From a virus: DNA of 33,516 nt. The notes beneath the pieces are model-generated. The model searched no databases, was not told where the DNA came from, and saw only the letters and a list, made by a program, of their open reading frames with translations. Location: positions 1-33,516 of IMG/VR virus record IMGVR_UViG_3300009494_000012; one strand, 5' to 3'. This document shows positions 5,536 through 33,516 of this stretch, piece by piece. The stretch's first letter is position 1; every line of letters begins with the position of its first letter. The translations under genes were made by a program, and so were the position numbers.

Positions 5536-5536
5536 T

Positions 5537-6145
5537 TTATACCTCTACTATTTCGGACATGATTCCGCCTGTGATCTGAGCATCGTCCCCGAACCCCTGC
5601 ATTGTGCTCGCTTCCAGGGCGTCCCCGGAGGCGAATGTGAACGTGGCATCATCATCGACGATGGAATATTGAAACCATGCCTTGATACCGGCGCCGTTAA
5701 CATTGTTCAACAACGACACAAAATCCTCAGGGTCGGAGTCTACCCCTGTCACCCAGGCATCCACCAATCGGATGATGAATGCCGCGGGCGGGATCTCGAT
5801 CATTTCGTAGGTCCGGTTGTAGAAATTCACCAGCGCCCGTAGAATATCTTCCGGGGTGGCATCAGAGAAATTGATCTGGATCTGTGCTTTGATGGCCAGC
5901 CGATACGCATCATCGCCGCGACCTTCCCTATCTTCACCAACAATGGATCCCATGCCGTCCAGTTGCACACCGACTGCTGTGTCTATCCACCGATCCAGAT
6001 ACAACTCGAACGACGCTTCTTCTAGATCTTGTATCTGATTGACAAACGCCGTAATGAACGCCGCCATCTTGGGCGAGTTCTTGAATTGCTCTAGCCGGTT
6101 GCCCAGAGCTTCGGTCACATGGTCCGTGGTTTTTGTCAGTGTCAT
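5537..6145 (-). CDS. Baseplate wedge protein, DUF2612/gpI-like
   Basis: A 202-residue protein whose ATG overlaps the stop of the J-like gene (TAATG). The N-terminal helix (NRLEQFKNSPKMAAFITAFV) and the section LYLDRWIDTAVGVQLDGMGS-IVGEDREGR-DDAYRLAIKAQI match what I know of DUF2612 phage proteins, which occupy the gpI place of P2-type baseplates next to gpJ. Its job is to link the wedge ring with the tail fibre, whose gene follows with one base between. The C-terminal part (residues 120-202) is beta-rich and probably the fibre-contact domain. Gene order W-J-I-fibre supports the call. Confidence 0.85.
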   Translation of the reverse strand: MTLTKTTDHVTEALGNRLEQFKNSPKMAAFITAFVNQIQDLEEASFELYLDRWIDTAVGVQLDGMGSIVGEDREGRGDDAYRLAIKAQIQINFSDATPEDILRALVNFYNRTYEMIEIPPAAFIIRLVDAWVTGVDSDPEDFVSLLNNVNGAGIKAWFQYSIVDDDATFTFASGDALEASTMQGFGDDAQITGGIMSEIVEV

Positions 6146-7602: not shown

Positions 7603-7955
7603 ACTATTAACTCCGTTTTGAATTCAAAGCTGCCCGATTCCGATTCTCCAATAAAAGAAATCGAGAGTGTTCGAGTGGCCCCGCTATAGTCCAGTTCAAA
7701 ATTTTTAATGGCTAGTATTCCGTCGGTGAGTAAGATTGCTTTTTGGATTATCTGGCTCACCACGTTCAGCCGAGGTTTCTGACCGAGTATTTTTTGGAAC
7801 CACGGCACTCCAAGGCGCTGGTCGAGGAACCATTCGCCCTGGAAAAACTGCAACCGAACTTTGCAGCTTTGAGCGATGGCGTTTGTGCCCTCGAGTAATG
7901 CGAAATCACCTGCGGTGAAATCGAGGTCGTGAGCGGTGTCGAGCTTCAGATCCAT
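7599..7955 (-). CDS. Baseplate wedge protein, gp25/W-like
   Basis: A 118-residue protein matching the T4 gp25 / P2 W family by size, position beside J and sequence. The family pattern is visible as AIAQSCKVRLQFFQGEWFLD then GVPWFQKILG, followed by a helix and a C-terminal strand pair (LSISFIGESESGSFEFKTEL). In the family this protein sits at the sheath-baseplate junction and bears the handshake-like contact to the first sheath ring. It is translationally coupled to the spike gene (TGATG) and to J (ATGA). Confidence 0.9.
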   Translation of the reverse strand: MDLKLDTAHDLDFTAGDFALLEGTNAIAQSCKVRLQFFQGEWFLDQRLGVPWFQKILGQKPRLNVVSQIIQKAILLTDGILAIKNFELDYSGATRTLSISFIGESESGSFEFKTELIV

Positions 7956-8671
7956 CAGTCAGCCTTCAGATTCTTGGATGCAGTCGAAGAAGGCGGGATC
8001 GGAAATGCTGCTATGAATGCGGCCTTTAGAGCAGCACCACCATCAGTAGGAGCCACGACCCAGGCTGTCGCAATCACTGCATACAATTTGGCCCAGAGAA
8101 CATCCACCAACGTAGACATCGCCACATATCCCCCGACAGATGCCGGCAGACCTTTGGATGTCACTTCCATCGTGGCGCCTTTGGCTCGTAGCTGGGCGTC
8201 GTTCTCCGCGCCGAATATTGCGCCTTGCGTCACGTCACCTTTCAACGCTTTCAGCACCGGGTAGAATCCAGGGATCGCCACGGCGTCCGAGATATCGTTG
8301 GTCCGCAGATCAACGGGGTTGACAGGAGTCGTGCCCGGGCTGCTTTTGTATTTGTCGATGGAGCGGTCGCAGAAAACCAGCAGCACTAGGTCGCCCGGGG
8401 CCAGCGGGAAACTCATGAAATATCCGCCACCTCGAGGAAAAGCCACCGGGACGCCAGGAATGATGGGTAGTTTATCAAGCGATTCCGTGCCGTCGTCGAA
8501 CACCACCGGCCGAGATAGTAACGGCTGCACGTCGGCCATCTGCGTTGCTGCCGTGTAAGTCACAATTTTCGCAGGCATCGCCACAAACATATCACCAACG
8601 GCCTGGCTCACCGCTGCTTGGAGCAGTTCCGCGAGGCTGGGCGTTCTTTCGTTTCCAAGTTTATCATTCAT
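7955..8671 (-). CDS. Membrane-piercing spike protein, gp138-like
   Basis: A 238-residue protein with the gp138 N-terminal OB-fold signature: PAKIVTYTAATQMADVQPLL, then IPGVPVAFPRGGGYFMSFPL, APGDLVLLVFCDRSIDKY, and NDISDAVAIPGFYPV. In contractile phages this trimer forms the central spike below the hub. Residues 160-200 (AQLRAKGATMEVTSKGL) would give a short beta-helix. The last 50 residues are Ala-rich and helical, unlike a typical iron-tipped spike; no HxH iron motif is seen near the end, so a separate tip protein or no tip is possible. It overlaps the hub gene by ATGA. Confidence 0.88.
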   Translation of the reverse strand: MNDKLGNERTPSLAELLQAAVSQAVGDMFVAMPAKIVTYTAATQMADVQPLLSRPVVFDDGTESLDKLPIIPGVPVAFPRGGGYFMSFPLAPGDLVLLVFCDRSIDKYKSSPGTTPVNPVDLRTNDISDAVAIPGFYPVLKALKGDVTQGAIFGAENDAQLRAKGATMEVTSKGLPASVGGYVAMSTLVDVLWAKLYAVIATAWVVAPTDGGAALKAAFIAAFPIPPSSTASKNLKAD

Positions 8672-9570
8672 GCTATCGGTGTCCCTTCGAACTCAGTATA
8701 CCAATCCGCGCCCCATGTGTCGCCAAAGTAACTGCATTTTGTCGCTTTGTACTTACCGTTCAACGCTTTAGAAATTATTGTCACAAGGCGCCCTGGCCGG
8801 ATGGACGGCTGCATGAGACTCCGCGCCTCGATAACCCCCTTCTCACCGCTCTCGGGAGACCCCACAAGGCCCGTCAAGCTGCTCAAGATAGTTATACTGT
8901 CTAGTAGGGTTTCATCCTGCGAAAGCACCTGTAACTGGCCGTCCTGGATACTCCAGTGGTAGCCGGCAGACGTCACGTACTTGTCGAGTAGCTTAGAGAC
9001 TTTCCCGGTCAACGCCACCCCATGATCGAAGTTGAGATATCCACGCTGGGAGCCAAGGGCAAAATGAGCAGCCGAATTACCCAGCCCAACCCCGAGCGCC
9101 GTAGCCAGTGCCGTCAAAACTGTGAGCACCGGTGTGCCCGGCCCGAACGTCAACGGCGGATCGAGCCTGGCCGACCGATAGGATTTACCGCCATCTTCTG
9201 CTTCGATCGTCGTCACCCAGTCAGTGTCACCCAATTTGGAATCTGCACGAACAATATCTCCTGAAAATATCTGAGCACGATTCCCTGCGTACCCCGCCTC
9301 GATAACTAACGGCCAGTCGTAAATCAATCCGGCTTTTCTGGAAGTAGCAGCTAGGTCAGAACCAGCCAACAGCACCTTCCTGTTCGCCTCGCTCAGATTG
9401 TAGATTTCCACTGACGCCAAATTCGGGTCACGGTTGCCGGATTTCTCCACCGCAAAAGCCACCCGCAGGGATGGAGTAATTTGTTTGGTTATAGAATCTA
9501 TCGTCTGGATCGATATTTTCTGTGAACCGACAGTCATCTCGAAATCACGGTTGAACAGATCAGTGATCAT
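8668..9570 (-). CDS. Baseplate hub protein, gpD/gp27-like
   Basis: A 300-residue protein between the plug-like and spike genes. It opens with a beta-rich section (LFNRDFEMTVGSQKISI, LRVAFAVEKSGNRDPNLASV, EIYNLSEANRK) and continues with AGYAGNRAQIFSGDIVRAD, the tail-tube-like fold seen in hub proteins such as gpD of P2 and gp44 of Mu. The last third (GHWSI-like GYHWSIQDGQLQVLSQDE, LMQPSIRPGRLVTII) is the usual second tube-like barrel. The trimer would connect tube and spike. ATGA overlaps at both ends indicate a coupled hub-plug-spike set. Confidence 0.87.
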   Translation of the reverse strand: MITDLFNRDFEMTVGSQKISIQTIDSITKQITPSLRVAFAVEKSGNRDPNLASVEIYNLSEANRKVLLAGSDLAATSRKAGLIYDWPLVIEAGYAGNRAQIFSGDIVRADSKLGDTDWVTTIEAEDGGKSYRSARLDPPLTFGPGTPVLTVLTALATALGVGLGNSAAHFALGSQRGYLNFDHGVALTGKVSKLLDKYVTSAGYHWSIQDGQLQVLSQDETLLDSITILSSLTGLVGSPESGEKGVIEARSLMQPSIRPGRLVTIISKALNGKYKATKCSYFGDTWGADWYTEFEGTPIA

Positions 9571-9911
9571 TCCGCCGCCCCGATTCCCTCTTCGTCGAGG
9601 TATCCGAAGATGGAGGTGACGTTCAAATCCTCAAGGCCAGGATCTGTCGGCGACCATCGGGTATCGTAGCTTATTAGCTCGCCGAGCGGTCGAGTACGTT
9701 CTTTGAAAAGGCGTAACAACGGGTAATTGGATACCACCTTGATCCCACTTCGCAGAACAGTGCCTTCGGCGTTCAACAGATCGAAATACCAAAACTGCTC
9801 CCTGGAATTAAACTGGAAGTTCAACTGAAAATCACTTCCATCCATGTCCACGGAAAATGTAAAGGCACCAAGTTCGGCGGCATCGGTCAATGGGATGGTG
9901 TAAGTAGTCAT
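9567..9911 (-). CDS. Baseplate plug protein, Pam3 gp18-like
   Basis: A 114-residue all-beta protein beginning MTTYTIPLTDAAELGAFTFS, with QFNSREQFWYFDLLNAEGTV and LRSGIKVVSNYPLL. This order and spacing match the small plug family named after gp18 of the minimal myophage Pam3, located at the base of the tube next to the hub. The gene sits between the Dit-like protein and the hub, the same order as in Pam3-like phages. The last 20 residues include a conserved-looking LNVTSIFGYLDE strand. Confidence 0.82.
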   Translation of the reverse strand: MTTYTIPLTDAAELGAFTFSVDMDGSDFQLNFQFNSREQFWYFDLLNAEGTVLRSGIKVVSNYPLLRLFKERTRPLGELISYDTRWSPTDPGLEDLNVTSIFGYLDEEGIGAAE

Positions 9912-9912
9912 A

Positions 9913-10545
9913 TCAACCTAATCCAGTAAAACTGCTCAAGCCAGATCGGGCTTGTTGTGCTGTCTCTGCTTGTTTGGCCGTTGCTGCGTCCTTGGCCAGC
10001 TTCGCCTTGTGGGCGGCTGCTTTGTTCGCCACGTCGTTCGGGATAGGAGAACCTATCGCCAACGATGTCGCAGTAACGACCTCCCGAAGTGATACCGTGC
10101 AGTTGAGCACGTTGCCCGTAGTGGCATCTCGCACTATCACAATGGAAGTGATCGCCATGTCGGTGTATCCCCGCAAGGAAGTCACCACGTCGATCAGCGT
10201 CCCGGAGTTTTTCAATTCGTTTAGTTTGAGATATGCTGCGTTCACCCGGTCGAAGGTCGGAATCGTACTGGGCTGAACAGGAGACTTTGCCAACAGGCTC
10301 GCCAGATACACCAGCGGGGTGTTCGTCACCATGCCGTTGATTTCCACTGTCTCGGGCAGCGCCCGGATGTGGTCGGACATCACCGAGCCGTTTTCTACCG
10401 GGTGATCTGTTACCTCGGCTTCCGCCGAATGCGTCTCGGACAACGAACAGTCGAACTCAATGATTCCGACAGTGGGCAAAAGTATTTTACCAAGCTGCAC
10501 CCGGGTCGGTTCTCCAAATATGAGTTCGGTGATGCCCTTGGCCAT
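9913..10545 (-). CDS. Dit-like tail/baseplate protein
   Basis: A 210-residue protein coupled to the tape measure stop (TAATG). Residues 1-60 (IGIIEFDCSLSETHSAEAEV-type region with TDHPVENGSVMSDHIRALPE) are diagnostic for the Dit-like N-terminal domain of many contractile phages: an E-V-T-x-H-P-V-E-x-G turn. Residues 85-160 hold the second beta domain (LKLNELKNSGTLIDVVTSLR, CTVSLREVVTATS). The last 45 residues are an Ala/Lys-rich helix, perhaps reaching into the tube. In the family it forms the ring between tube end and hub. Confidence 0.83.
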   Translation of the reverse strand: MAKGITELIFGEPTRVQLGKILLPTVGIIEFDCSLSETHSAEAEVTDHPVENGSVMSDHIRALPETVEINGMVTNTPLVYLASLLAKSPVQPSTIPTFDRVNAAYLKLNELKNSGTLIDVVTSLRGYTDMAITSIVIVRDATTGNVLNCTVSLREVVTATSLAIGSPIPNDVANKAAAHKAKLAKDAATAKQAETAQQARSGLSSFTGLG

Positions 10546-12287
10546 TATGCAGGCTCCGAAGTCAGTGCTCGCATGGCCGTCCGTCGTTCCTTTTCATTCG
10601 CTTTCGTTATTTGCGTGACCACCTCACCGCCTACCTTCGCAGGGCTCATCCCCGACCCTCCTTGAAGATTCACTTCAACGGAAGTTTGCGGCGACCAGTT
10701 CATCAACGACTGTGAGGTTCTTCCGGCCATAGTAGGCGCAGCACCAGTGCCTCCGGTCGCGCGGGCGCCTCCCGCAAGTGCGCCTGCTCCTTTGAGTTTG
10801 GGACTTGGCTTCCCCTCCGTCGTCCCCTTGCCGATCTTGAGCCAATCGGGGATCGCATCTTTGATTTGATTTATACCATCCTGGATGTCACCGATGAATT
10901 CCCGCCAGATTTTATTTCCTATCGCTCTTAGTTTTACCATCCATATGACAAAACCTTCAACCATCCCTTTCAGAGAGATGTCAAAATCAATACCCAACGC
11001 GTCAAGGCCCTTTTGAATTTCGGGCAGAAACTTATCCCAGATCAGGAGCATGTGATTGCCAAAATTTTCCCATGCTTTCTCGGTCTCCCCCGCCCAAACA
11101 TCCGAGAAAAAATGGCCAATAGCTCTGAACGTGTGATAGACTCCGTTCGCAATGCCTTCGAAAATCGAACCCACTCCATCAGCAAATAACCCCATGTCAG
11201 ATATCCACTGGTCATAAGTGAGGTCTATCCCGAGGAAGTCCCCGAACTTCTCCATAATAGCGCCGATAGCCGACCGCCCACCCTCTTTCCAAATTTGAAA
11301 ATCCTCGATCAGTAAACCGATAATAGTGATCAGCAGCAAGAATTTACCGATAGGCCCGCCCATCAACAACGCGCCAAGCAAGGTGACGGCGACACCGATA
11401 CCAGCGATTTTTTTCTTCATCGGGGACAACTTACTGATAAACTTCCCGACCGTGCGCGCCAACCCGGCGAAGAACTTTATATTTTTCAGAAGCACCTGTC
11501 CAAACTTGGTGAAGAACACCCCGATACGCTGCCGGATTATCTTGCCGTTGGCCTTCCACCAATTGATAAAACCATTGGTCAACTTATTGATTTGCGGCAA
11601 TAGGTCCTTGGCGATAGAGTTTTTGATGCCCATAATCACGACATTCATCCGTCGCTGGTTGTCGATATAGTCGGCACTGTCCTGAACCATCTCATCGGAC
11701 ATTATGCCGCCGAGATCTTTCATCTCCTGCATCATCTCGCGGATGGCATCAGAGCCTTCATTGAACATAGGTATCAGCTGTGTTCCAGAGCGGCCGAGAA
11801 GACTCATCGCCACAGCAGTTCGTTCTGCATCAGTATCTAAATTTTTAATTCCATCGGCCATCTCGATGAACAGGTCCGTCGTATCTTTCAGATTGCCTTT
11901 CTCATCACGGACAGTGACTCCCATCCGCTTGAACTCGTCCACGTACTCGGACATCCCATCGTCTGCTTCCACCTGGGATTTTTGTAATTTCTTTATCGCT
12001 GTCTCAACAGAGGCGAGCGATGTCCCTGATAATTCAGCAGCATGGTCCAGACCTTGGAGTGTCGCCGCCACCATACCAGATCGCTTCGCCATCTTATCGA
12101 ACTGATCGCCGAGAGCGGCCACCTCTTCAATGACGCCCTTCAACCACTTGACGGTTTTAATTGCAGCAAACGCAGCGACGGCGAGCTTAGCCAGGGCAAC
12201 GACTTTTTTCAGTCCGCCTTCGGCCTTCTTTTGTCCCTTGTCGTCGGTCTTGATACCGAGTCGTGCGACTAGTTCTTTGACGATCAT
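10545..12287 (-). CDS. Tape measure protein
   Basis: A 580-residue protein placed directly after the G/GT chaperones. It starts MIVKELVARLGIKTDDKGQK, then a mixed helical region with MAKRSGMVAATLQGLDHAAE and AVAMSLLGRSGTQLIPMFNE, motifs typical of the TMP N-terminal part. Residues 294-327 are strongly hydrophobic and probably form the membrane-inserted part used in DNA ejection. Residues 490-530 are a Gly/Ala-rich low-complexity stretch. By the usual 0.15 nm per residue rule the tail would be roughly 85-90 nm, an inference. The ATG overlaps the GT stop (ATGA) and follows GAGGT. Confidence 0.93.
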   Translation of the reverse strand: MIVKELVARLGIKTDDKGQKKAEGGLKKVVALAKLAVAAFAAIKTVKWLKGVIEEVAALGDQFDKMAKRSGMVAATLQGLDHAAELSGTSLASVETAIKKLQKSQVEADDGMSEYVDEFKRMGVTVRDEKGNLKDTTDLFIEMADGIKNLDTDAERTAVAMSLLGRSGTQLIPMFNEGSDAIREMMQEMKDLGGIMSDEMVQDSADYIDNQRRMNVVIMGIKNSIAKDLLPQINKLTNGFINWWKANGKIIRQRIGVFFTKFGQVLLKNIKFFAGLARTVGKFISKLSPMKKKIAGIGVAVTLLGALLMGGPIGKFLLLITIIGLLIEDFQIWKEGGRSAIGAIMEKFGDFLGIDLTYDQWISDMGLFADGVGSIFEGIANGVYHTFRAIGHFFSDVWAGETEKAWENFGNHMLLIWDKFLPEIQKGLDALGIDFDISLKGMVEGFVIWMVKLRAIGNKIWREFIGDIQDGINQIKDAIPDWLKIGKGTTEGKPSPKLKGAGALAGGARATGGTGAAPTMAGRTSQSLMNWSPQTSVEVNLQGGSGMSPAKVGGEVVTQITKANEKERRTAMRALTSEPA

Positions 12288-22102: not shown

Positions 22103-23011
22103 TTACCCGGCGGCCTTCGCTTCTTTATTGTACTGGGCGTAAAGGTCCGCACCGAGCGGGCTCTCCATCACCGTGGCGATTGCTATCTCGCGGCTCATGC
22201 TCAAGTCTTCGGACTTCTCGATGAGGCCGTCGGCCAGTTTCTCGATCTTATCCCAGGCCGAACCGGTGACCTCGTGGACTCGCACGCCTCCGGCGTTTTT
22301 CAGGATCTCGGACTCCTTGAGTGCGTCGGACGCGGCCTTCATCGTGTCGAACTGGGTGTCGGCCATCTTGGGGTCCAGGTCGGCCAAGGATTTGAGCATC
22401 ACGCCCATTTCGTCGATGCTCTTGCCGGGGAAATGGGACAGATCGGCGCGGGCCTTCTCGGTCCATGCGGCCAGCTGACGTGCGTCCGTCTCCACCTGGA
22501 GCTGCTTCTCGACCTTCTCGTTGCGCTCGGTCAACGCGGTGATCTTGTCGTCCGCTGCTTTCTGAATGCCTTGGAAATGCTTCTTGACGTCCTCGGACAG
22601 ACCTTCCGTTTTCTTCCGCTTCATCGCCTCGTCCTCCTCGTCCTCGTCCTCTTCGTCTTCCTTTTTCTTCTCGGCGGCTTTCTTTTCCACGACCGTGGGC
22701 TCGATCCCCACCATCTCGCCGAGCGCCTTCATGAAGTCCGCGGGCATCTCGTCCTTGAAACCAGACACGAGGCGGGCTACTGCCTTGGCAGCGTTTCCGC
22801 CCTTCTCACTGATTCCCATTTTCGTGACCAGCTCCTCGATGGCGTCTTCGCCTTCCAGCTCTGTCTCCAAAACTGCTTTGAGGATTACGTCCCATTTTTC
22901 ATTCGGCATTTTGGTTTTCTCCTGTTTGAATATCGGAAAGCGCTTCTTCTTATTCGCGCCTCTGTCTACAATGGATAATTCCCCAACGTGAAGTTCTTGG
23001 AGTCGTTTCAT
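22103..23011 (-). CDS. Prohead scaffold protein carrying an N-terminal LSIVDRGAN motif
   Basis: A 302-residue helical, highly charged protein. It begins MKRLQELHVGELSIVDRGAN-KKKRF, a motif that normally lies at the C-terminal end of XkdF-type phage proteases. Then follow helices (AIEELVTKMGISEKGGNAAK), a very acidic tract (KKKEDEEDEDEEDEAMKRKK), and a coiled coil (DKITALTERNEKVEKQLQVE). Length, charge and place between protease and capsid genes point to the scaffold. ATGA overlap with the protease gene; GAGAGGA precedes the start. Confidence 0.82.
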   Translation of the reverse strand: MKRLQELHVGELSIVDRGANKKKRFPIFKQEKTKMPNEKWDVILKAVLETELEGEDAIEELVTKMGISEKGGNAAKAVARLVSGFKDEMPADFMKALGEMVGIEPTVVEKKAAEKKKEDEEDEDEEDEAMKRKKTEGLSEDVKKHFQGIQKAADDKITALTERNEKVEKQLQVETDARQLAAWTEKARADLSHFPGKSIDEMGVMLKSLADLDPKMADTQFDTMKAASDALKESEILKNAGGVRVHEVTGSAWDKIEKLADGLIEKSEDLSMSREIAIATVMESPLGADLYAQYNKEAKAAG

Positions 23012-25071
23012 CTGGCGGTCCTCTCCTCCAGATCAACGAAAGTGATTTCCGGCAACTGCGCCCGGGTGACCGGGACTTTGATGCCGAAACCGCCTGGGGA
23101 GAAAGCAGTCAACTGACCGTCCTCGAACATGGCCCATTCTTTCGGGCCGAGGCGGACTCCGACGATCCAAGATCCAGAATGAATGACATCGTCGCCGAAC
23201 TTTCGCCGATAGACTCGATGAGGCTGATCGGACATCGCTGCGAGATAATCTTTTCTACTTGGATATTGCTCAACTGATGTTTCGACCAGCTGGGCGTCGG
23301 CTTTCTTTCCGTGCTGGATACCGATGACGCACGGACCAACTGCGTATTCGTGAGCTGTCTCTTCGACCATCGCTGGCGTCGGCCAATCTCCATGCGCGTC
23401 CTCTTCGGCGCCACTCGCCCCGTAAGGATCGAGCACGACACCGTAAACGATGCGTTTGATTGGATCGGATTTTGCGATGGAAACCGGCTCATTCTTTTTC
23501 TCCGCTTGCTCGGCCAGAACGTCGATGAATCGAGGTTTCTGTCCGGGCGCACCCCACACCAGAAATTCTGCTTTTTGAATTCTCAGCTCGCGTAGAACAT
23601 CTGCGAGGTCGTTTGTTTCGGCGATAGGCGTCTGATTTTTCGGCTTATCTATCAGCCACCGGCGCTTATCTCCAAAAGGTGCCGACAAAAGTAAGTATCG
23701 GCCCGAAAGGTTGTCGCCGTCAAGAAAAATCTCAACCGATTCGTTTTTTACCACTCCGAGCTGAAACGTCCCGGTGTCGTTCAAGAAGAATTTCTCGAAC
23801 TCATTTGCTTCTCCCGGCCCGCTGACGAAAGGCTTCTCGGATCCGACATCGAGCCATTCTTTCGGCGAATTCAGTTTCGGTGACACCTCCAACCTTTTTC
23901 TGACATCCCAATCGATCAAACGATCCTGGTGCTTCAACATCCGGTTGGAATCTGTTTTGCCCAAAGAAACAGCAAAACCGAAAAGATCGTCTTCTCCTTC
24001 GATACGCAGATCACCGTGAACGGCATGCTCCGTCTTCAACATCAGCTGCTCGTCGGTCATACCGATTTCATCTTCCGACAATCCAGACCAGTGATGTTGG
24101 TAGCTGAACCGCCCGGAGCCACTGCGCGGCATCTGCTTGTACCAATCGCCCATGTCCGGGCGAGAGTCGCCTTCGGATTCCGAAAGTTTCGTGGACAAGG
24201 CTTTGAAAATACGCTCCCTCTTTTCGATGAGTTCGCCGATCCGTTTGACCTTCCTAGCTACCTCGCCGGAATCTCCGAACCGCTCCACAGCAGACGGATG
24301 TGGTAAAACGAAATCCGCCCGGTCGCCCAGCTCCTTTGCCACAAGGCGCCCCAAGGCCACCATCACCGTCGGCGCGGCAGCATCCAGAACGCTGCGCTGC
24401 TCGTCACGCCACACTTCCAGCTCGGCATGCCTCGGTTCTCGGCGAGTGCCTTCCATCGATTTCAATACCTGAGGCACCAGCGCCGTCAACAGAACATCTT
24501 CCCGGGCCAGCCCCAGCGGCCGCAGATACTTCTCGACGAAACAGGCGCCGACCGCCCCAACTAAATGCTCGCCTCGAGCCCGCTCCATCGGATCCAAGCT
24601 CGCCTCGATGAACGCTACCTTCGGAGCTTCCGGCCCGGACGCCACTACTTCCGGCACTCCTCGTACAAGGTCGGTGTCGTGCTTTGTCAGAGCTTCGAAT
24701 TCTGCCGTGGCTTCTACTAAAGGCCCGGCCGACACGCCCAGCTTACGCCTGCCCATCTCCTTGCGAGTAACCAGGGCCGCACCAACGATGCTCTCCACGG
24801 GCTTCTTGGACTTCTTCGCGCTGGAGTACCAGCCGCCAAGTTGGCCCCAAACTTCACGGAGGTCGTCATCAGAAGCATCAGTGAGCCCGGCCGAAATCCC
24901 GACCAGGGCGATTTTCTCGACCGCCGATGGCACAAGTTTACGATGTGCCGACCGCCCACCCGACCTGGCCCGGGCAGAGGACATCAGCGAAGAGTACAAC
25001 CATCCCGGCAGATGCTTTTTCGTTTCGATCAGTAGCTCTTCTAAATATTCTCGTGCATTGTCTTTTGGCAT
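23008..25071 (-). CDS. XkdF-type prohead protease fused to UDG-like and LigD phosphoesterase-like domains
   Basis: A 687-residue protein. ATG 25071 is chosen since AGAAGGG lies 8 bases before it and it follows the upstream stop; the frame opens at 25164. Residues 1-130 are helical. Residues 152-279 resemble a family 4/5 uracil-DNA glycosylase fold: VAFIEASLDPMERARGEHLV-GAVG, PTVMVALGRLVAKELG, and LPHPSAVERF with the HPS motif; Fe-S cysteines are absent. Residues 325-477 resemble a LigD 3'-phosphoesterase-type barrel (TEHAVHGDLRIEGEDDLFGF, GDNLSGRYLLLSAPFGDKRR-WLIDKPKN). Residues 539-669 are the XkdF serine protease (RIVYGVVLDPYGASG, IQHGKK with His587, TAFSPGGFGIKV with Ser658). Only the protease role is firmly expected; the others may be structural relics or act on DNA. 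Confidence 0.8.
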   Translation of the reverse strand: MPKDNAREYLEELLIETKKHLPGWLYSSLMSSARARSGGRSAHRKLVPSAVEKIALVGISAGLTDASDDDLREVWGQLGGWYSSAKKSKKPVESIVGAALVTRKEMGRRKLGVSAGPLVEATAEFEALTKHDTDLVRGVPEVVASGPEAPKVAFIEASLDPMERARGEHLVGAVGACFVEKYLRPLGLAREDVLLTALVPQVLKSMEGTRREPRHAELEVWRDEQRSVLDAAAPTVMVALGRLVAKELGDRADFVLPHPSAVERFGDSGEVARKVKRIGELIEKRERIFKALSTKLSESEGDSRPDMGDWYKQMPRSGSGRFSYQHHWSGLSEDEIGMTDEQLMLKTEHAVHGDLRIEGEDDLFGFAVSLGKTDSNRMLKHQDRLIDWDVRKRLEVSPKLNSPKEWLDVGSEKPFVSGPGEANEFEKFFLNDTGTFQLGVVKNESVEIFLDGDNLSGRYLLLSAPFGDKRRWLIDKPKNQTPIAETNDLADVLRELRIQKAEFLVWGAPGQKPRFIDVLAEQAEKKNEPVSIAKSDPIKRIVYGVVLDPYGASGAEEDAHGDWPTPAMVEETAHEYAVGPCVIGIQHGKKADAQLVETSVEQYPSRKDYLAAMSDQPHRVYRRKFGDDVIHSGSWIVGVRLGPKEWAMFEDGQLTAFSPGGFGIKVPVTRAQLPEITFVDLEERTAR

Positions 25072-25087
25072 TTCCATCGCCCTTCTA

Positions 25088-26098
25088 CTACTTCGGTGCT
25101 CGTCCCAAGATCTCAGTACACACGCATCCAGGATGAGCCGGTGGCCCCACAAGAGGTCCGACATCTGAATCGTATGTTCCCTTCAAAGTTGTCTTCATGC
25201 CGTTCAGGTTCAAACAAATCTCGCACGGCGAATTCGGATTTGCGCTGGGAGGCTGCGTAACCCACTCCCGCTCCACCGAAGGCAACCCGCCCGATTCTTC
25301 CGCCACTATCCACGCATCCAGCCGACCCTGTGCCTGCGCCCGTATCGTCTCCGTGCGAGCGATCATCGTCGCCCGTTGCCCCAGCATCTTGGCTTGGTAT
25401 TTGCTGGTCAATGCCACCGCCCGCTCTTCCGCCATCCCAGCGTCCAGGTGTAACTGTTTACGCTTCATCGCCGCGCCCGCCTGGCGATCAGTCAATCCGA
25501 TATTGGACTTGATCTGCGCGATCATGTCCGTCGGCCGAATGCCCTGTTCCATCGCATCGCCGATGATGGCATTGACCATCTTCTTCTGTGTCTTGGTCAT
25601 CTGCTTCGCAAGGTCGAGCCCGTTTTGTTTGACCCATTTTAACGAGTACGGGTTTACCCCAACCGAGACATCGGCACGAGCTTTCTGGATGATGGTCACT
25701 TTCGCATCCGATGGCGGAAGTGCCGAGAATTTCAGCTTTACGCCGAACTGTTTGTTCAAGGCATCAGTGGCCTCGTCCCCTGCGGCCTGGACAACATCCA
25801 AGTACGCCGATTCCAGCTTGTCGTTGAACACCGCGACCGCGCCCTCGGCGGGATCGTCATCGAAATAAGGCAGGGTATTCAGTGCCCTGGACACCGACCC
25901 CGCCCGCCACTCCTTGAGAAATTCCGCCTCGACCTCCGGCGTGATCATGTCCCGGGCCACCTTCATGAACGACCGGATGAATTTCGTTTCATGCTCGGCT
26001 GCGATTTTGTAGCTGTCCTTCAAAGCCGCTTCAGGCAGGTAGACTTTTTGTCGAGCCTTCCAAATTCGGCGGGCCTTGTAGAGCTGGACTAGAGGCAT
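25088..26098 (-). CDS. Minor head protein, Mu F-like
   Basis: A 336-residue protein of the phage Mu F / SPP1 gp7 head morphogenesis family. The family core is in the C-terminal half: ATMIARTETIRAQAQGRLDA (ARTET at 247-251), then SPCEICLNLNG with Cys292 and Cys295, and GPPAHPGCVCTEILG with His322, Cys325 and Cys327. The N-terminal half is helical. The family protein binds the portal and joins the prohead before maturation. The ATG at 26098 has a poor ribosome site, six bases after the holin-like stop. Confidence 0.92.
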   Translation of the reverse strand: MPLVQLYKARRIWKARQKVYLPEAALKDSYKIAAEHETKFIRSFMKVARDMITPEVEAEFLKEWRAGSVSRALNTLPYFDDDPAEGAVAVFNDKLESAYLDVVQAAGDEATDALNKQFGVKLKFSALPPSDAKVTIIQKARADVSVGVNPYSLKWVKQNGLDLAKQMTKTQKKMVNAIIGDAMEQGIRPTDMIAQIKSNIGLTDRQAGAAMKRKQLHLDAGMAEERAVALTSKYQAKMLGQRATMIARTETIRAQAQGRLDAWIVAEESGGLPSVEREWVTQPPSANPNSPCEICLNLNGMKTTLKGTYDSDVGPLVGPPAHPGCVCTEILGRAPK

Positions 26099-27906: not shown

Positions 27907-29337
27907 CTAAATACTCCAGGGACTTGGGCGGGCGCCGCTTGTAGGCAGGGCAAATTTGAAATTCTGGGTACGTTTAGACAATCGGGCCAGTGCCATTGTC
28001 ATGGAGTCGACCTGGTCGTCGTTGACTGCGTTCGGGAAGTTGACCGCCTCTTCGATAAAGTCGTTAGCCCACGGCGCCACTGACTGCTCGGGGATCCACA
28101 CATTGCCCGATTCGATGAGGCCCGACACCGCCACAAGTCTGGCTTCCTTGCTGCCCATAGGACGTTGGCCAATGATGCCTGGGATTTTATCCGAGAGCAT
28201 AGAGATCGCGGCGTGTCCATTGGCGGCTTCCTCGACTATCTTGGCGGTGGCGCCCGGCCATTTTTTCGTTAATCGTTCAATTGCTCGTAACGTACTCGGA
28301 AAATCTAACTTATCACGGACCAGGTCCGCAAGGTAAAAATCCGCACCCTTCCGTCCCCACACCTCGCCGACGACGAAAGACGAACCGAGCGCCTTGAACG
28401 TCAGATCCCACGATTGAATCAGCTCATCGAACTGTTCCGGTAGCTCTTTGTACCGCTGGAACCAATTCCGCTTAACGATCCCACCCTCTAACGGCGCGGG
28501 TCTCTGCTGGTAAAGACCGGCGAACATATACGACGACATGGACTTTTTCGTCTGCTTGAGTACCTCGGCCGAGAACCGTTCTGGACAAAGCGCCTCGCCG
28601 AGTTCACGACCAAGCGGATCATTCTCTTCCGCCAGCGCAGGCAAGCTGATCACTTTCCAGTCGTCCTCATGATCAGACATGAGGTACCCGCTCAAATCTC
28701 CTTCGTGCCAGCGAGTTTGGATCACCACAATGGAGGCCCCCGGCTCGCGGCGGCTGTAGAACGTGGCGTTGAACCAGTCAATCGTCTTGCGGCGGAATAC
28801 CGGAGACAAAGCTTCCTCCCAGTCCTTGTGCGGGTCGTCGATGATGAGCAAGTTCCCACCCTCGCCCGTGATACCGGCGCCAACACCAACCGAAATCATG
28901 CCGCCACCATCCGTCATTTGCCAATCTCCCGCCGATCCGTGCTCCTTCGAAATCTGAACACGGGACTCCGGATGCCTGTCCAGATGGTCCCTGACCTTAC
29001 GCCCCCACTTAGTGGCAAACCGACTTCCGTAGCTGCCCAAGATCACGCGCTGCTCAGGAAATAAATCCAAGTACCAGGCCGGCAACCAGAACGAAATGCC
29101 TTCGCTCTTGCCGTGTCTCGGTGGGGCGTTGATAATGATCCGGGCGTTGCCTTGTATGATCCGCTTCCGCACGTACTCCAGGACATAAGCGATCCATTCG
29201 AAGCGAATCCACAACCCGCCGCTCATCCGCGCGCCATAATCGGACGGAGACAGACGCCAGCCTTGAGACCCGATGATTGCCTGCTCTTCGGGGCTAATCT
29301 GAGTCACCTTCGTCCCGCAACGCTTCGGAAATCGCAT
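27907..29337 (-). CDS. terL: Terminase large subunit
   Basis: A 476-residue packaging motor. Walker A is NAPPRHGKS at 70-78, Walker B LLIIDDP at 163-169 with acidic residues following, and QTRWHEGDLSG (207-217) is the coupling region. The RNase H-like nuclease shows QSWDLTFK with Asp311, IVEEAANG with Glu369/Glu370, and NDDQVDSMTMAL with Asp441/Asp444. The annotated ATG 29337 has a weak ribosome site and overlaps terS by 44 bases; a GTG at 29307 after GGGACGAAG would shorten it by 10 residues. It belongs to the terminase_6-type group. Confidence 0.95.
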   Translation of the reverse strand: MRFPKRCGTKVTQISPEEQAIIGSQGWRLSPSDYGARMSGGLWIRFEWIAYVLEYVRKRIIQGNARIIINAPPRHGKSEGISFWLPAWYLDLFPEQRVILGSYGSRFATKWGRKVRDHLDRHPESRVQISKEHGSAGDWQMTDGGGMISVGVGAGITGEGGNLLIIDDPHKDWEEALSPVFRRKTIDWFNATFYSRREPGASIVVIQTRWHEGDLSGYLMSDHEDDWKVISLPALAEENDPLGRELGEALCPERFSAEVLKQTKKSMSSYMFAGLYQQRPAPLEGGIVKRNWFQRYKELPEQFDELIQSWDLTFKALGSSFVVGEVWGRKGADFYLADLVRDKLDFPSTLRAIERLTKKWPGATAKIVEEAANGHAAISMLSDKIPGIIGQRPMGSKEARLVAVSGLIESGNVWIPEQSVAPWANDFIEEAVNFPNAVNDDQVDSMTMALARLSKRTQNFKFALPTSGARPSPWSI

Positions 29338-29923
29338 CTACCAGTTCTGGATTCTCTACCAGCCTCTGAAGTGTAGCTCTTTCTTTCTCGACGTCAAAAA
29401 CGTGATGCTTCTCCTGGATGGTATCAGGCTCGCCCATGTTCAGCCGCTCCAGCTTGGTGCCGCTATCCATGAGCGCAGCAATCTCGCTCGGTTTCAGAAT
29501 CATCGCGCCACCAGCTACCCGGTTCTTCAGCTCGTTGTATAACTGCCTCGCACCCAGCGCACCAATTCCCTGCATGGATTTGGCAAGTTCGATGTGCCGA
29601 CGCTGCATTTCCTCCCGGGCATAAATGCGTTGTTCTCGAACTCGACGGTCCAACACCCGATCCCATGCCTCGACCCGCTTCCGCCATTGGTACCGGGTTG
29701 ATAGCTTCGCGTACCAGTCCCGGAGACTCTTGCCGCCCTTTCCGCCATACGTCTTCTGGTACAGCACAGAGGCGGCCGACTGAGATCGCTTACCCTCCAA
29801 GTTGCGGTAGAATACGAACGCCTGCCACGCCTTGTCTGGTTCTCCTGGCTGGCGATCGAACAACGGGATATCCTCAGCCAGCTCGAACTTCTTAGGTGGG
29901 TTTCTTTTCTTTAGTGTGACCAT
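29294..29923 (-). CDS. terS: Terminase small subunit
   Basis: A 209-residue protein just upstream of terL. N-terminal residues include FDRQPGEPDKAWQAFVFYRN, then a helix-turn-helix-like region (YGGKGGKSLRDWYAKLSTRY, QWRKRVEAWDRVLDRRVREQ), a coiled middle (REEMQRRHIELAKSMQG) and an acidic C-terminus. The E-x-x-x-A-W-x-A-F-x-x-Y-R and W-x-x-R-x-x-A-W-D patterns are frequent in phage small terminase proteins. It would recognise the packaging site. AGGA precedes the ATG, and the upstream stop is only 3 bases away. Confidence 0.85.
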   Translation of the reverse strand: MVTLKKRNPPKKFELAEDIPLFDRQPGEPDKAWQAFVFYRNLEGKRSQSAASVLYQKTYGGKGGKSLRDWYAKLSTRYQWRKRVEAWDRVLDRRVREQRIYAREEMQRRHIELAKSMQGIGALGARQLYNELKNRVAGGAMILKPSEIAALMDSGTKLERLNMGEPDTIQEKHHVFDVEKERATLQRLVENPELVDAISEALRDEGDSD

Positions 29924-29925
29924 GC

Positions 29926-30792
29926 CTATGTCCTGCTAACAATTTTCATCCCATACTCGTTCGGCTCGTCCGGGATTATAACACCATCCCTCCGTATCAG
30001 CCTGTTATTTTTGAACGGCCGGTAGTCAACACGATGGTGCCAGCGACCAAACTTCCAAACGAGCTTTGTTACGTCTGGATGCAAAGCAACCAGCGCCTCC
30101 GATTTTGGATATGTGCCCTCTTTCTCATAAAACTCTTCCGTGTTTCCCCCCTCGACATACTGCGTTGTCATCTTCAGCTGCAAAAAAGCATTGAACTGCG
30201 CTGTGCACCATCCCGCCTTGAGTATCCGAAGCGACAAATCGGTATCTTCGTTGTACCTGCTACGCCACCGAAACGGCACATCGTTTCGGATAAGGTTGCA
30301 AGAATAGACGCGGGTATTGAAAACGACCGGAGGTACCTTGTCTTTCCGCGAGGCAAACATGAAATAGTTCGGGCCCGCCGTTGCTATGTTCTTGTACCGT
30401 AAACAGAAATCCTCCATCACCTTGAACAGCGTGCCATCCTTTACCGGTATTTGCGAATTACGATTGAATCGATGGAATAGCCGAATGTTATCATCCATCA
30501 CCCAATGCCACCTGTGGCCGTTGGCGACAGCATGATCCCAAATAAAGTTTCGCGCCGGCCCTGCTCCCTTACTCTTGGTATCTCCAAGATCATCGCAAGT
30601 GTTATAATCTCGCTGGTATGTTTCATCGAGGACAAGCAGCTTTTTCTCATCCATCACCGCCGCGTAGTCATCGTGTTCCTGGTCTTCAACAACCACCAGG
30701 AACGGCACACCCATCAACTCTAGTACCTTCATAGTCATGCGGCTGTCAGCACGTCCCTTGGAAGGGATGTAGAGCGGGAACTGCGGGTTCAT
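29926..30792 (-). CDS. TET-associated-type glycosyltransferase (TAGT)
   Basis: A 288-residue GT-A-type glycosyltransferase. The N-terminal LYIPSKGRADSRMTMKVLEL followed by GVPFLVVVEDQEHDDYA is the hallmark of the TAGT family described in phages with modified 5-hydroxymethylpyrimidines. VMDDN at 98-102 supplies the metal/nucleotide-sugar Asp pair, and RYNEDTDLSLRI (179-190) gives the acceptor-site acidic pair. GPARNFIWDHA lies between, as in the family. It should add a sugar to an oxidised base in phage DNA. It sits directly between the radical SAM genes and terS, AAAGGA before the ATG. No TET/JBP oxygenase is in the window. Confidence 0.87.
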   Translation of the reverse strand: MNPQFPLYIPSKGRADSRMTMKVLELMGVPFLVVVEDQEHDDYAAVMDEKKLLVLDETYQRDYNTCDDLGDTKSKGAGPARNFIWDHAVANGHRWHWVMDDNIRLFHRFNRNSQIPVKDGTLFKVMEDFCLRYKNIATAGPNYFMFASRKDKVPPVVFNTRVYSCNLIRNDVPFRWRSRYNEDTDLSLRILKAGWCTAQFNAFLQLKMTTQYVEGGNTEEFYEKEGTYPKSEALVALHPDVTKLVWKFGRWHHRVDYRPFKNNRLIRRDGVIIPDEPNEYGMKIVSRT

Positions 30793-30804
30793 TATCGTCC
30801 TTTC

Positions 30805-32184
30805 TTAGCTAAGAAAATTCGAGTGCGGGGAGTCATTGTACATCTGCTCTAAAGTCTTATTTGCCTCCGCCAGTTTGCAATTACTTGGGCACATCCGTAC
30901 AACAACAGCCTGCCCTGTAGCGTGCCTATCTTCATTCACCCAAAGGTCAACAAACCGCCGCTCCTTCGATAACTTCCCGTAAACCCCGATGCCACTCCGA
31001 CTGAAAACATAATCCATCATGTGACAGCAAACAAGCACAGTACCGTCCGCACAGATAGTCGGACAGAACGGATGGCACCAGCACTTTGAGAAAGGCAGGC
31101 CATCCGTTTCAGAAAGAAGAACAGCAACGAACTTGTAACCCGGAGTGTAGATTGCAAAGCCGTCGCGCTCATACGCTCCCAGCATGACGAGTGTATCGAA
31201 AATCCTTCGATCCCAGTAAATCGAATCGATACTCATTCCACGCTCGACAGGCGGAATCTCTAACGGCTTCACCTGAAAGTAGTCGAGCCCTTCGATCTCG
31301 CGGAACTGCAAGACGCTCGTGATGATCTCCAAGTAGTTCCCTGGAGTCATGAGGTACGAAACCCCGAGTGTCGTGTTCGAGCCTACATGCTCCTTCGCGA
31401 TGCCGAGTCGAACAATACCAGCGATGAGCTTCTCGAAGTTCACCGCAGCAACCTGTCCGTGCATCTTCTCGTATCCTTCCTGACTCCCGGCATCGACGCT
31501 GACACGGCACCACGCACAACATTCAACCACAGCCTCAATAACCTCTGCCATCTCTGCAGTATCTTTGTACAGTAGCGACCCATTCGTAACAAGACCGACC
31601 TCGATACCTGCGGCATGAATGCCTCGAATGATTTGCGCCAACTGCGGGTGAAGTAGCGGCTCACCTCCTCCAGAAAGAATAACTCCGCGCACCTTCAGCT
31701 TGACCATGTCCTCCAGTAGTTTGGAGAAAAGGTCCATATCGAACTTCGCCTTCCAGAACTGCCCCTGCTCTCCGTGCTCTTTCGCCCGCTTCGGTATACT
31801 GAATGTGCATCCCGGACAATGATGATTGCAGACGTTCGAAGGATGAAGCTCCACAGTTATCGGGCCGACTTCCTCGGGGCGTTCTGCATCGAGCGCAGAC
31901 ACCTTATCGACATGTCGAAGGATCTTAGACGAGTGGAAAAATCCAGTCGCCCTCGAAGCAGAATGCGTCTTGAACTTATCTAGATTCGCTCTCTCCATCT
32001 CCAGCATAAGATCACGGAGATGTCCAAGAGCACGAGGTGGAAAATTCCGCATATTATCGGCTTGCATAAATGCGTCATAGTCCTCTATCGAAAGAGAAAG
32101 ACGCGAACAGAAATCCTTGAGACCCAACCGAAGGTCACTGCGTACCCGTTCAAGAAGATCCGCCCGAAGCACTCCATTATTCAT
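30805..32184 (-). CDS. Radical SAM/SPASM-type enzyme with helical N-terminal domain
   Basis: A 459-residue protein; ATG 32184 (ATGA overlap, AGAAAGG 7 bases before) is chosen over the upstream start. Residues 1-100 are helical (ADLLERVRSDLRLGLKDFCS) and of no known family. The radical SAM core follows: C119-x3-C123-x2-C126 (CNHHCPGC) for the 4Fe-4S/SAM cluster, ILSGGGEPLLHP (GGEP motif, near 169-180) and GLVTNGSLL. The C-terminal part has extra cysteines at 368, 370, 374, 378, 386, 387, 432 and 436 (CWCHPFC, VCCHMMD, MCPSNC), as in SPASM domains that hold auxiliary clusters. Substrate unknown; neighbours suggest DNA base or sugar modification. Confidence 0.85.
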   Translation of the reverse strand: MNNGVLRADLLERVRSDLRLGLKDFCSRLSLSIEDYDAFMQADNMRNFPPRALGHLRDLMLEMERANLDKFKTHSASRATGFFHSSKILRHVDKVSALDAERPEEVGPITVELHPSNVCNHHCPGCTFSIPKRAKEHGEQGQFWKAKFDMDLFSKLLEDMVKLKVRGVILSGGGEPLLHPQLAQIIRGIHAAGIEVGLVTNGSLLYKDTAEMAEVIEAVVECCAWCRVSVDAGSQEGYEKMHGQVAAVNFEKLIAGIVRLGIAKEHVGSNTTLGVSYLMTPGNYLEIITSVLQFREIEGLDYFQVKPLEIPPVERGMSIDSIYWDRRIFDTLVMLGAYERDGFAIYTPGYKFVAVLLSETDGLPFSKCWCHPFCPTICADGTVLVCCHMMDYVFSRSGIGVYGKLSKERRFVDLWVNEDRHATGQAVVVRMCPSNCKLAEANKTLEQMYNDSPHSNFLS

Positions 32185-33161
32185 GTACTGACCTTTCTCC
32201 ATGCCATGCCATCCCAGTATATACCGACCTCCTCATCTTTCCAATGCCGGAAGTCGCATCGGGAAAAAGTCACATTGCATCGCCGACAGTAGTCCGAAGC
32301 GCCAGCGCGATCTTTCTCCCGCAAGCGTAGCCGGATTTCCTGCATCCGCTTGCTGTACCAGAACGCCTTGAACCCTGAGACACCGTCATGAACAGAGCCG
32401 AAATCCTCTTGTGCCGACTCACCTGTGTTGTCCTGACAACACACAAGATAACGCCCACGCGAATCGACATTCACGTACAGGAACGGCTGGTTGCATCTCC
32501 GAGTAAGCGGTTCCGTAACAGGCTTCAAACCGAACCGAGCGGCTTTCTCCCAGTCCAAATGGTTGAACCACGTGCCGAGCAATCCTGCACGGAATCGGCT
32601 TTTTGGCCAGTTTTCCGGCTGCTCCTGGAGAACGATCAATTTCAAACCCGGGCCGTGGTAGTTCCACGGGGAAGGAGCGCCATCAGGAGCGTCGTAGTAC
32701 TCGTAAAACGGACACCCAGACGCTTTTGCCAGTTCAATGTACTTCTCCTGGGAACCGTACATGTCGGTATAGACGACATTTGCCCCTGCCTGCAATAGCT
32801 GACGATAAGTAAGCTTGCCGTTTCGAATCTGCGTCCCGTTCGTTGTGATCTGTATCTGAGACAACGGAGATATTTTTCGAGCGATGGTTAGAAACTCAGG
32901 CAGATCAGGATGCAACGTCGGCTCCCCACCGAACGCCAGATCCGCCCGCCTTGTGGGAGACACTACCGAGATGATTTTCCACAAAGCCACCCACGTCACC
33001 CTATCCATGAAATGGAAAGTCTTCGGCTTCGGATCCAAAGCACAGCTACAATGACCACAACTTAAATTACATCCATGAGTAGGCTCGATGCACCACACCC
33101 AAGGGCTGGTACTCCCCATCGGGTTGACCTTTTTAGGTGTCTTTACTGGAGGGAAGATCAT
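32181..33161 (-). CDS. Radical SAM/SPASM-type enzyme
   Basis: A 326-residue protein with AGGAGA before its ATG. EPTHGCNLSCGHCSC carries C31-x3-C35-x2-C38, followed by LAFGGEPTLHPDLPEF (GGEP, 78-81), IQITTNGTQI and a partial TIM barrel ending about residue 215. The C-terminal region has RCNQPFLYVNVDSRGRYLVC-CQDN and YCRRCNVTFSRCDF (Cys223, 241, 242, 292, 295, 302), typical of a SPASM-like auxiliary cluster region. It overlaps both neighbours by ATGA, so it is made together with the second radical SAM enzyme. Similar to, but only distantly related with, that neighbour; a sequential pathway is plausible. Confidence 0.87.
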   Translation of the reverse strand: MIFPPVKTPKKVNPMGSTSPWVWCIEPTHGCNLSCGHCSCALDPKPKTFHFMDRVTWVALWKIISVVSPTRRADLAFGGEPTLHPDLPEFLTIARKISPLSQIQITTNGTQIRNGKLTYRQLLQAGANVVYTDMYGSQEKYIELAKASGCPFYEYYDAPDGAPSPWNYHGPGLKLIVLQEQPENWPKSRFRAGLLGTWFNHLDWEKAARFGLKPVTEPLTRRCNQPFLYVNVDSRGRYLVCCQDNTGESAQEDFGSVHDGVSGFKAFWYSKRMQEIRLRLREKDRAGASDYCRRCNVTFSRCDFRHWKDEEVGIYWDGMAWRKVST

Positions 33162-33511
33162 ATCGGCTCTCCTGTGAGCGTGTGTTTTCGCTCGGGTGCC
33201 ACGTCGGGATCATACCCATATGACTCTGCCAGGACTTTTGCTTCCTTCACGATTTTCTTGTTCTGGACTTTGTCCCAAGTGAACGGCTTGCGGGTAAAAC
33301 GTGTTGTTTTCGTCCGCGCCTTATTTTTCACCGACACATCGGTAGGTGGCTCCGCAGGCAAACCGAGCGGAGTAGCTATGCTTAGCCAGTCCTCGGCTAA
33401 GCTCTCCAGGCGGACCCGGGCGGTCGGGTTTTTCTTTGCGATAAGCTTGTTCCACTTGATCCAGAATAGTACCGAGCGAAGCGGCTCCGGTATATCCACC
33501 CCAACTCCCAC
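33158..33511 (-). CDS. Basic protein of unknown function, start at contig edge
   Basis: About 113-117 residues are visible, ending at a TGA that overlaps the radical SAM start. The frame remains open to the contig edge, so the gene may extend further; possible starts are GTG 33511 and GTG 33499, the latter with GGGAG five bases before it. The first part (VLFWIKWNKLIAKKNPTARV) is helical and the middle is basic (KNKARTKTTRFTRKPFTWDK), ending YGYDPDVAPERKHTLTGEPI. No family recognised. Coupling to the radical SAM gene suggests a part in the same module. Confidence 0.65.
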   Translation of the reverse strand: MGVGVDIPEPLRSVLFWIKWNKLIAKKNPTARVRLESLAEDWLSIATPLGLPAEPPTDVSVKNKARTKTTRFTRKPFTWDKVQNKKIVKEAKVLAESYGYDPDVAPERKHTLTGEPI

Positions 33512-33516
33512 ATGCG

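Follow-up and report, generated by a model that had tools for sequence, protein, structure and literature searches.

In IMG/VR record IMGVR_UViG_3300009494_000012, a linear tailed-phage fragment of 33,516 bases that was analyzed in full (hereafter the window), a TAGT-family glycosyltransferase is coupled on the minus strand to two radical S-adenosylmethionine (SAM) enzymes, rSAM1 and rSAM2, and to the terminase genes. Relatives of both enzymes are repeatedly linked to a ParB-like gene and TAGT in other phages, and genes for TET, hydroxymethylase and C5-methyltransferase enzymes are scarce in these relatives. The reading favored here, tentatively, is that the window genes represent the accessory end of a ParB-TAGT module for phage DNA glycosylation in which radical SAM enzymes edit the sugar. 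The TAGT would move a sugar from a nucleotide donor onto a base, or a base-linked group, of the phage DNA, to which it is probably brought by the ParB-domain partner present in relatives. By 5'-deoxyadenosyl-radical chemistry, rSAM1 and rSAM2 would edit the sugar before or after transfer, with dehydration, deamination, decarboxylation, epimerization and dehydrogenation as candidate edits, and the resulting deoxy- or otherwise altered sugar could shield the DNA from restriction enzymes, Cas nucleases and DNA glycosylases.

DNA is probably the target of the cassette, because of the ParB partner, the placement of rSAM1 copies in replication-gene context in three contigs (L083, L085 and L086; related records are cited by such locus labels), and the activity of the T2/T6 TAGT on DNA. 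Given a DNA target, the sugar is in turn the probable substrate of the radical enzymes, because rSAM2 has a DesII/BlsE-like predicted fold, the profile of rSAM1 matches BtrN, and FkbM, epimerase and SDR genes occur in relatives. The substrates of DesII, BlsE and BtrN are sugars or aminocyclitols. A broader proposal, in which ParB-TAGT glycosylates DNA as a self-contained and widespread system that requires neither hydroxymethyl nor TET-derived groups as handles, with its radical SAM partners producing deoxy-, decarboxylated or epimerized sugars linked to the DNA, is conceivable but doubtful; if true, these would be the first radical-SAM-edited sugars on DNA and a phage DNA counterpart to the BlsD-BlsE chemistry.

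Organization of the cassette

The gene order on the minus strand is a truncated basic open reading frame (ORF), rSAM1, rSAM2, TAGT, the terminase small subunit (TerS) and the terminase large subunit (TerL). The basic ORF (33158-33514) is joined to rSAM1 (32181-33161), and rSAM1 to rSAM2 (30805-32184), by ATGA overlaps; rSAM2 and TAGT (29926-30792) are separated by 12 bases, TAGT and TerS (29294-29923) by 2 bases within the same operon, and the reading frames of TerS and TerL (27907-29337) overlap. TerS matches PHROG 6299 (E = 2e-14), and TerL matches PHROG 38 (E = 1e-99), PF17289 and PF03237.

The TAGT, a protein of 288 aa, scores 151 bits against PF20691 (cutoff 27.5, E = 5e-44) and also matches PHROG 842, named 'beta-glucosyl-HMC-alpha-glucosyltransferase'. 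Its DDN motif (residues 100-102) is invariant across nine aligned TAGTs; a search of its profile against the PDB returned no relative. The 326-aa rSAM1 is a radical SAM/SPASM enzyme, with CNLSCGHC at residue 31 fitting the CxxxCxxC pattern, GGEP at residue 78, matches to PF04055 (4e-11) and to the SPASM family PF13186 (5e-6), and invariant C-terminal cysteines. rSAM2 (459 aa from the ATGA-coupled start) qualifies as a radical SAM enzyme by CNHHCPGC at residue 119, GGEP at residue 173 and a match to PF04055 (4e-13). It has conserved cysteines at 368, 386, 387, 432 and 436, a Pfam SPASM match being absent, and carries a helical N-terminal extension of ~85 aa. Its start is best set at 32184, at the ATGA overlap with rSAM1, rather than at the longest-ORF start 32202, and the rSAM2 relative in L111 has a start of the same kind.

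A first-pass annotation of this DNA had described a TAGT, two radical SAM/SPASM-type enzymes and a small basic protein leading into terS-terL through ATGA overlaps or short gaps. The TAGT, the two radical SAM enzymes and the terminase pair are confirmed by Pfam and PHROG matches together with motifs, and no gap exceeds 12 bases; the SPASM label stands for rSAM1, and for rSAM2 it is a candidate label, conserved C-terminal cysteines being present and a Pfam SPASM match absent. The small protein is indeed basic (118 codons, isoelectric point 9.8) but is open at its 5' end, where the contig stops, and for this reason it may represent only the C-terminal end of a longer protein. Searches of Pfam, PHROGs and NCBIfam assigned it to no family, and the other rSAM1 loci lack a counterpart.

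Association of rSAM1 with TAGT

Relatives of rSAM1, 52-75% identical, are found in nine further IMG/VR contigs. A pattern scan of 84,980 prokaryote genomes confirmed none, though its short patterns may let divergent copies escape, and the sole match among annotated phages is partial, at 32% identity. To judge from these sequences, the rSAM1 family accompanies TAGT, its members being seen only in phage contigs. TAGT is present in eight of the nine contigs, within 2 kb of rSAM1 in seven of them and away from it in the eighth, the 69-kb contig L086; the lone contig without TAGT, L090, is a fragment of 10.2 kb in which rSAM1 is itself incomplete, and no contig longer than 10.2 kb was seen to carry rSAM1 without TAGT.

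Five gene orders hold rSAM1 together with TAGT. Besides rSAM1-rSAM2-TAGT in the window, these are rSAM3-rSAM1-FkbM-ParB-TAGT-TerL in L082; TAGT-rSAM1 in L083 and L085, with a ParB C-terminal-like ORF upstream and beta clamp and polymerase genes adjoining; rSAM1-UDG-ParB-TAGT-epimerase-TerS-TerL in L084; and, in L087-L089, ParB followed by rSAM1 and TAGT in a single reading frame. In the last case (for example, L089 3874-5223), the first ~209 residues of rSAM1 are joined to TAGT from about residue 45, so that the SPASM region and the N-terminal ~44 residues of TAGT are lost, and the fusion is likely a deletion product and may be a decayed form. In L083, L085 and L086, rSAM1 sits among replication genes (helicase, clamp and polymerase).

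The pairing persists across divergent TAGTs. The rSAM1 proteins share 60-74% identity, whereas their partner TAGTs drop to 42-48% in many pairs, and rSAM1-bearing contigs fall in several separate regions of a tree of 61 TAGTs. On this tree, the presence or absence of a radical SAM gene must have changed six times, and well-supported branches force at least five of these changes, a count that is approximate since short contigs may conceal some radical SAM genes. The cassette is mobile, and its genes behave as a functional unit, as the rSAM1-TAGT pairing is kept through five gene orders and rSAM2 recurs with ParB-TAGT elsewhere; the earlier view that the genes belong to one module is thereby borne out. 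When the rSAM1 profile was compared with PDB sequences, BtrN ranked first (2.9e-11).

The ParB-TAGT core and its exchangeable accessories

TAGT usually has a ParB-domain gene as its partner: members of a ParB-like family were found beside it in 68 loci, the median separation being one gene. The flanks of ParB-TAGT are mostly terminase or replication genes, the terminase-side locus being variable, and a Pfam scan of 80 neighbors returned replication, packaging and small methyltransferase types as the recurrent families. The ParB of L082 matches PF02195 at 2e-4, which is under the Pfam cutoff.

How the radical SAM genes relate to this core is best seen in L111 and L082, which are syntenic (TerL 84%, portal 74%, rSAM3 69% and ParB 68% identical). 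Despite this synteny, L111 has rSAM2 beside ParB-TAGT, in the order rSAM3-ParB-rSAM2-TAGT-terminase (rSAM2 82% and TAGT 57% identical to those of the window), while L082 has rSAM1-FkbM, and the window holds both rSAM1 and rSAM2 with an unrelated terminase (23%). rSAM1 and rSAM2 hence behave like exchangeable accessories of one cassette. TAGT is common without such enzymes: among 40 unselected TAGT records, 2 have a radical SAM gene. The reverse does not hold, no contig over 10.2 kb showing rSAM1 without TAGT, and this one-way dependence fits an accessory step on the TAGT product or donor better than the making of an acceptor.

Other genes of the related loci point to sugar metabolism as well. 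Nucleotide-sugar epimerase genes are present in L084 and L111, the L082 record has an SDR protein that resembles, by eye, UDP-glucuronate decarboxylase, and the FkbM of L082 could methylate a sugar. A third radical SAM protein with a B12-domain-like part, rSAM3, heads the cassette in L082 (8760-9926) and L111 (3685-4779). Tandem diverged TAGT genes lie between ParB and the radical SAM gene in the gut prophages L130, L131 and L133 (about 5500-8000), and L040 has tandem TAGTs too (9258-10858), an arrangement that suggests two successive sugar additions.

rSAM2, its relatives and its predicted fold

As a single query in IMG/VR, rSAM2 retrieved no relatives; a three-sequence rSAM2 alignment as query found 18 loci, and L111 is the sole close relative. 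Distant homologs are carried by phages and prophages of gut Clostridia in the order ParB-TAGT-rSAM-TerS-TerL (MT835491, L122-L124, L129-L131, L133-L135 and L137), some of them with tandem TAGTs. The sources include cultured gut bacteria, namely, bacterium 1xD42-67 (L129), Blautia sp. MSJ-19 (L133) and Eubacterium sp. An11 (L134).

The structure predicted for rSAM2 from 16 sequences has a pTM of 0.81, and its best fold matches in the PDB are DesII (Z 24.4 over 349 residues) and BlsE (Z 22.7 over 299 residues), with the peptide maturases SkfB and SuiB ranking below them (Z 20-21). A search of the rSAM2 profile against PDB sequences agrees with the fold search, returning DesII at 3e-13. Judging from the model, rSAM2 may work like DesII or BlsE, yet by score it is a member of neither equivalog, and a common fold is in itself no proof of function.

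Enzymes that make a base handle

Genes for enzymes known to make a base handle, or acceptor group, were sought in the related records. TET/JBP turned up once among 50 TAGT-bearing records and was absent from the nine rSAM1 records, from L111 and from a set of six further records; that the family was detected in one record indicates that the search itself was sound. This sole TET/JBP gene, at 28128-28589 of the L066 record (G035), lies tens of kb from the TAGT. C5-methyltransferase genes occur in three of the 50 TAGT records, none of which has rSAM1, and in two of four further gut or L111 records, both with one related enzyme. As a steady partner in the gut lineage, C5-methyltransferase was rejected, having been found in L123 and L124/L129 only. 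A match to the thymidylate synthase (TS) family, to which dCMP hydroxymethylase belongs, was detected in one of 22 records, as a weak fragment, and in none of the radical SAM records. It appears from these searches that the familiar handle-making enzymes are generally not part of the ParB-TAGT-radical SAM system.

Comparison with known systems

TET/JBP-TAGT hypermodification systems, reportedly described by Iyer et al. in 2013 and Burke et al. in 2021, likewise have TAGT in a phage modification operon, but TET and C5-methyltransferase are mostly missing from the relatives of the window. Hypermodification of thymidine reportedly involves a radical SAM isomerase and starts from hydroxymethyl-deoxyuridine made at the nucleotide level (Lee et al. 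in 2022); like the proposed cassette, this pathway brings radical SAM chemistry to phage DNA, and it is not known to have a TAGT-ParB core. Other contexts of phage radical SAM enzymes, those in Campylobacter phages and the Thermus Cumys/phiMa module with DUF483, differ from the cassette.

A close characterized glycosyltransferase is the T2/T6 TAGT, a beta-glucosyl-HMC-alpha-glucosyltransferase of the same Pfam/PHROG family as the window TAGT, which glucosylates DNA-linked glucose (PMC13216743). T-even phages possess a hydroxymethylase that makes 5-hydroxymethylcytosine as well as a first glucosyltransferase, whereas the relatives of the window have ParB and radical SAM genes and no TS-family hydroxymethylase. 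In a 2026 survey, solitary TAGTs were present in 288 of 753 glycosyltransferase-bearing phage genomes, and their role was left open (PMC13216743); a ParB-TAGT core with optional tailoring by radical SAM, methyltransferase and epimerase enzymes is proposed here as an answer. The proven cytosine modifier CmoX, too, has ParBc genes associated with it, although the chemistry of the CmoX/CmoY carboxymethylcytosine system is different, consisting of carboxymethyl transfer and amide ligation, and the searched text of that report mentions neither TAGT nor radical SAM enzymes (PMC12783734). In blasticidin S biosynthesis, the glycosyltransferase BlsD attaches a sugar to cytosine, and the radical SAM enzyme BlsE then decarboxylates the cytosine-attached sugar, a sequence parallel to that proposed for the cassette, except that BlsD-BlsE act on free cytosine in bacterial secondary metabolism (PMC3715490).

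A non-exhaustive literature search returned no mention of TAGT paired with radical SAM or ParB, and earlier notice is possible; subject to earlier literature, the cassette is plausibly a new form of phage DNA glycosylation. If DNA is the target, the cassette would probably produce nucleosides of a novel chemistry, with a bearing on resistance to restriction, Cas nucleases and DNA glycosylases.

Alternative explanations

Several observations weigh against the favored reading. No base-handle enzyme was found, and the TAGT may act on a target other than DNA. The fold match of rSAM2 to DesII, a radical SAM enzyme of TDP-amino-deoxyglucose, extends over most of its length but at 15% identity only, with the peptide maturases close behind, and rSAM2 scores far below the curated equivalog cutoffs of both DesII (37.6 of 450 bits) and BlsE (34.3 of 400 bits). 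The predicted structure of rSAM1 is poor (pLDDT 58). No ParB is visible in the window, the contig of which ends just upstream of rSAM1. Distant rSAM2 homologs (about 30% identical) lie in polysaccharide-type clusters of marine-type phages (L112 and L114), and rSAM2-like genes are located near major capsid genes, with a glycosyltransferase-like gene downstream, in L125 (4410-5369), L127 (2773-3738) and MW202801 (L091; 7989-9053), where they possibly constitute a capsid glycosylation module. It should be noted that most records compared are fragments, in which a single missing gene proves little and the joint pattern weighs more. In L112 and L114, the genes around the rSAM2-like genes were recognized by eye as those for a sugar kinase, a nucleotidyltransferase, a UDP-galactopyranose-mutase-like protein and a glycosyltransferase.

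The capsid and polysaccharide contexts would be explained if TAGT and the radical SAM enzymes built a glycan on the capsid, another virion protein or host envelope sugars, the terminase adjoining them as part of a structural operon, and FkbM and epimerase genes would suit glycan building; this is nevertheless judged unlikely, in that TAGT accompanies the close rSAM2 relative and every rSAM1 relative on a contig of adequate length, three rSAM1 copies sit amid replication genes, and the characterized T-even TAGT works on DNA (PMC13216743). About equally improbable is an order of events in which one or both radical SAM enzymes functionalize the base, at the pyrimidine ring or a methyl C-H, and so make the group that TAGT glycosylates. 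The scarcity of TET, hydroxymethylase and C5-methyltransferase calls for another source of the acceptor, and rSAM1 is closely bound to TAGT; however, most ParB-TAGT pairs have no radical SAM gene, TAGT being generally independent of it, and the best structural matches of rSAM2 are sugar-acting enzymes. The oxidation of 5-methylcytosine by a TET/JBP enzyme encoded off the contig, followed by glycosylation by TAGT and tailoring by the radical SAM enzymes, is very improbable, even though the name TAGT derives from an association with TET (Pfam PF20691) and the contig is cut just upstream of the cassette: the counts of TET/JBP and C5-methyltransferase given above speak against it, and the route was dropped as a general basis. 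Scarcely more probable is the chance placement beside TAGT of radical SAM genes that serve host metabolism or defense through viperin-like nucleotide chemistry. Viperin models are among the sub-cutoff NCBIfam matches, and the locus flanking the terminase is variable, but both enzymes score far under the viperin cutoff, as they do under the other curated cutoffs compared, and the linkage of rSAM1 to TAGT holds in five different gene orders and with TAGTs from separate clades.

Set beside the ParB-TAGT reading with sugar editing, the functional proposals of the first-pass annotation fare unevenly. DNA hypermodification remains plausible, a nucleic-acid target being favored by the 68 ParB loci, the replication-gene copies of rSAM1 and the T2/T6 TAGT, while the link to oxidized methylcytosine is not sustained in view of the scarcity of TET/JBP (1/50), C5-methyltransferase (3/50 and 2/4) and TS-family or hydroxymethylase genes (1/22, a weak fragment). 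Of the chemistry beyond glycosylation that it had envisaged, sugar remodeling is favored by the DesII/BlsE-like fold of rSAM2, and carbon-carbon bond formation has no evidence. Modification late, before packaging, is a weak suggestion since the same cassette is also found in replication operons. A polysaccharide context, which it had regarded as speaking against its view, applies to distant rSAM2 homologs only and not to close relatives, and the co-occurrence of TAGT with radical SAM genes, which it had named as a check, is seen in the further rSAM1 contigs.

Other features of the window

PHROG matches for sheath, tape-measure, baseplate, portal and major head proteins show the phage to be of the contractile-tailed type, and no terminal repeats were found in the window. 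Positions 13-46, at the contig start, carry GTCTCGTGGGCTCGGAGATGTGTATAAGAGACAG, which we take to be a Nextera transposase adapter and thus a contig-end assembly artifact. A 718-aa ORF on the minus strand (23008-25164) is an odd fusion of a uracil-DNA-glycosylase (UDG)-like domain (residues 191-296, PF03167 1.4e-6) and a phage prohead protease (PF14550). L084, too, has a UDG-family gene, placed between rSAM1 and ParB-TAGT, and UDG-like sequence seems, by eye, to be upstream of a polymerase-type gene in L083 and L085. A gene for a BNR-repeat protein (3469-5535) contains internal direct repeats at 4429-5136 with 72-88% identity, and a collagen-like repeat protein is encoded at 1689-2240.

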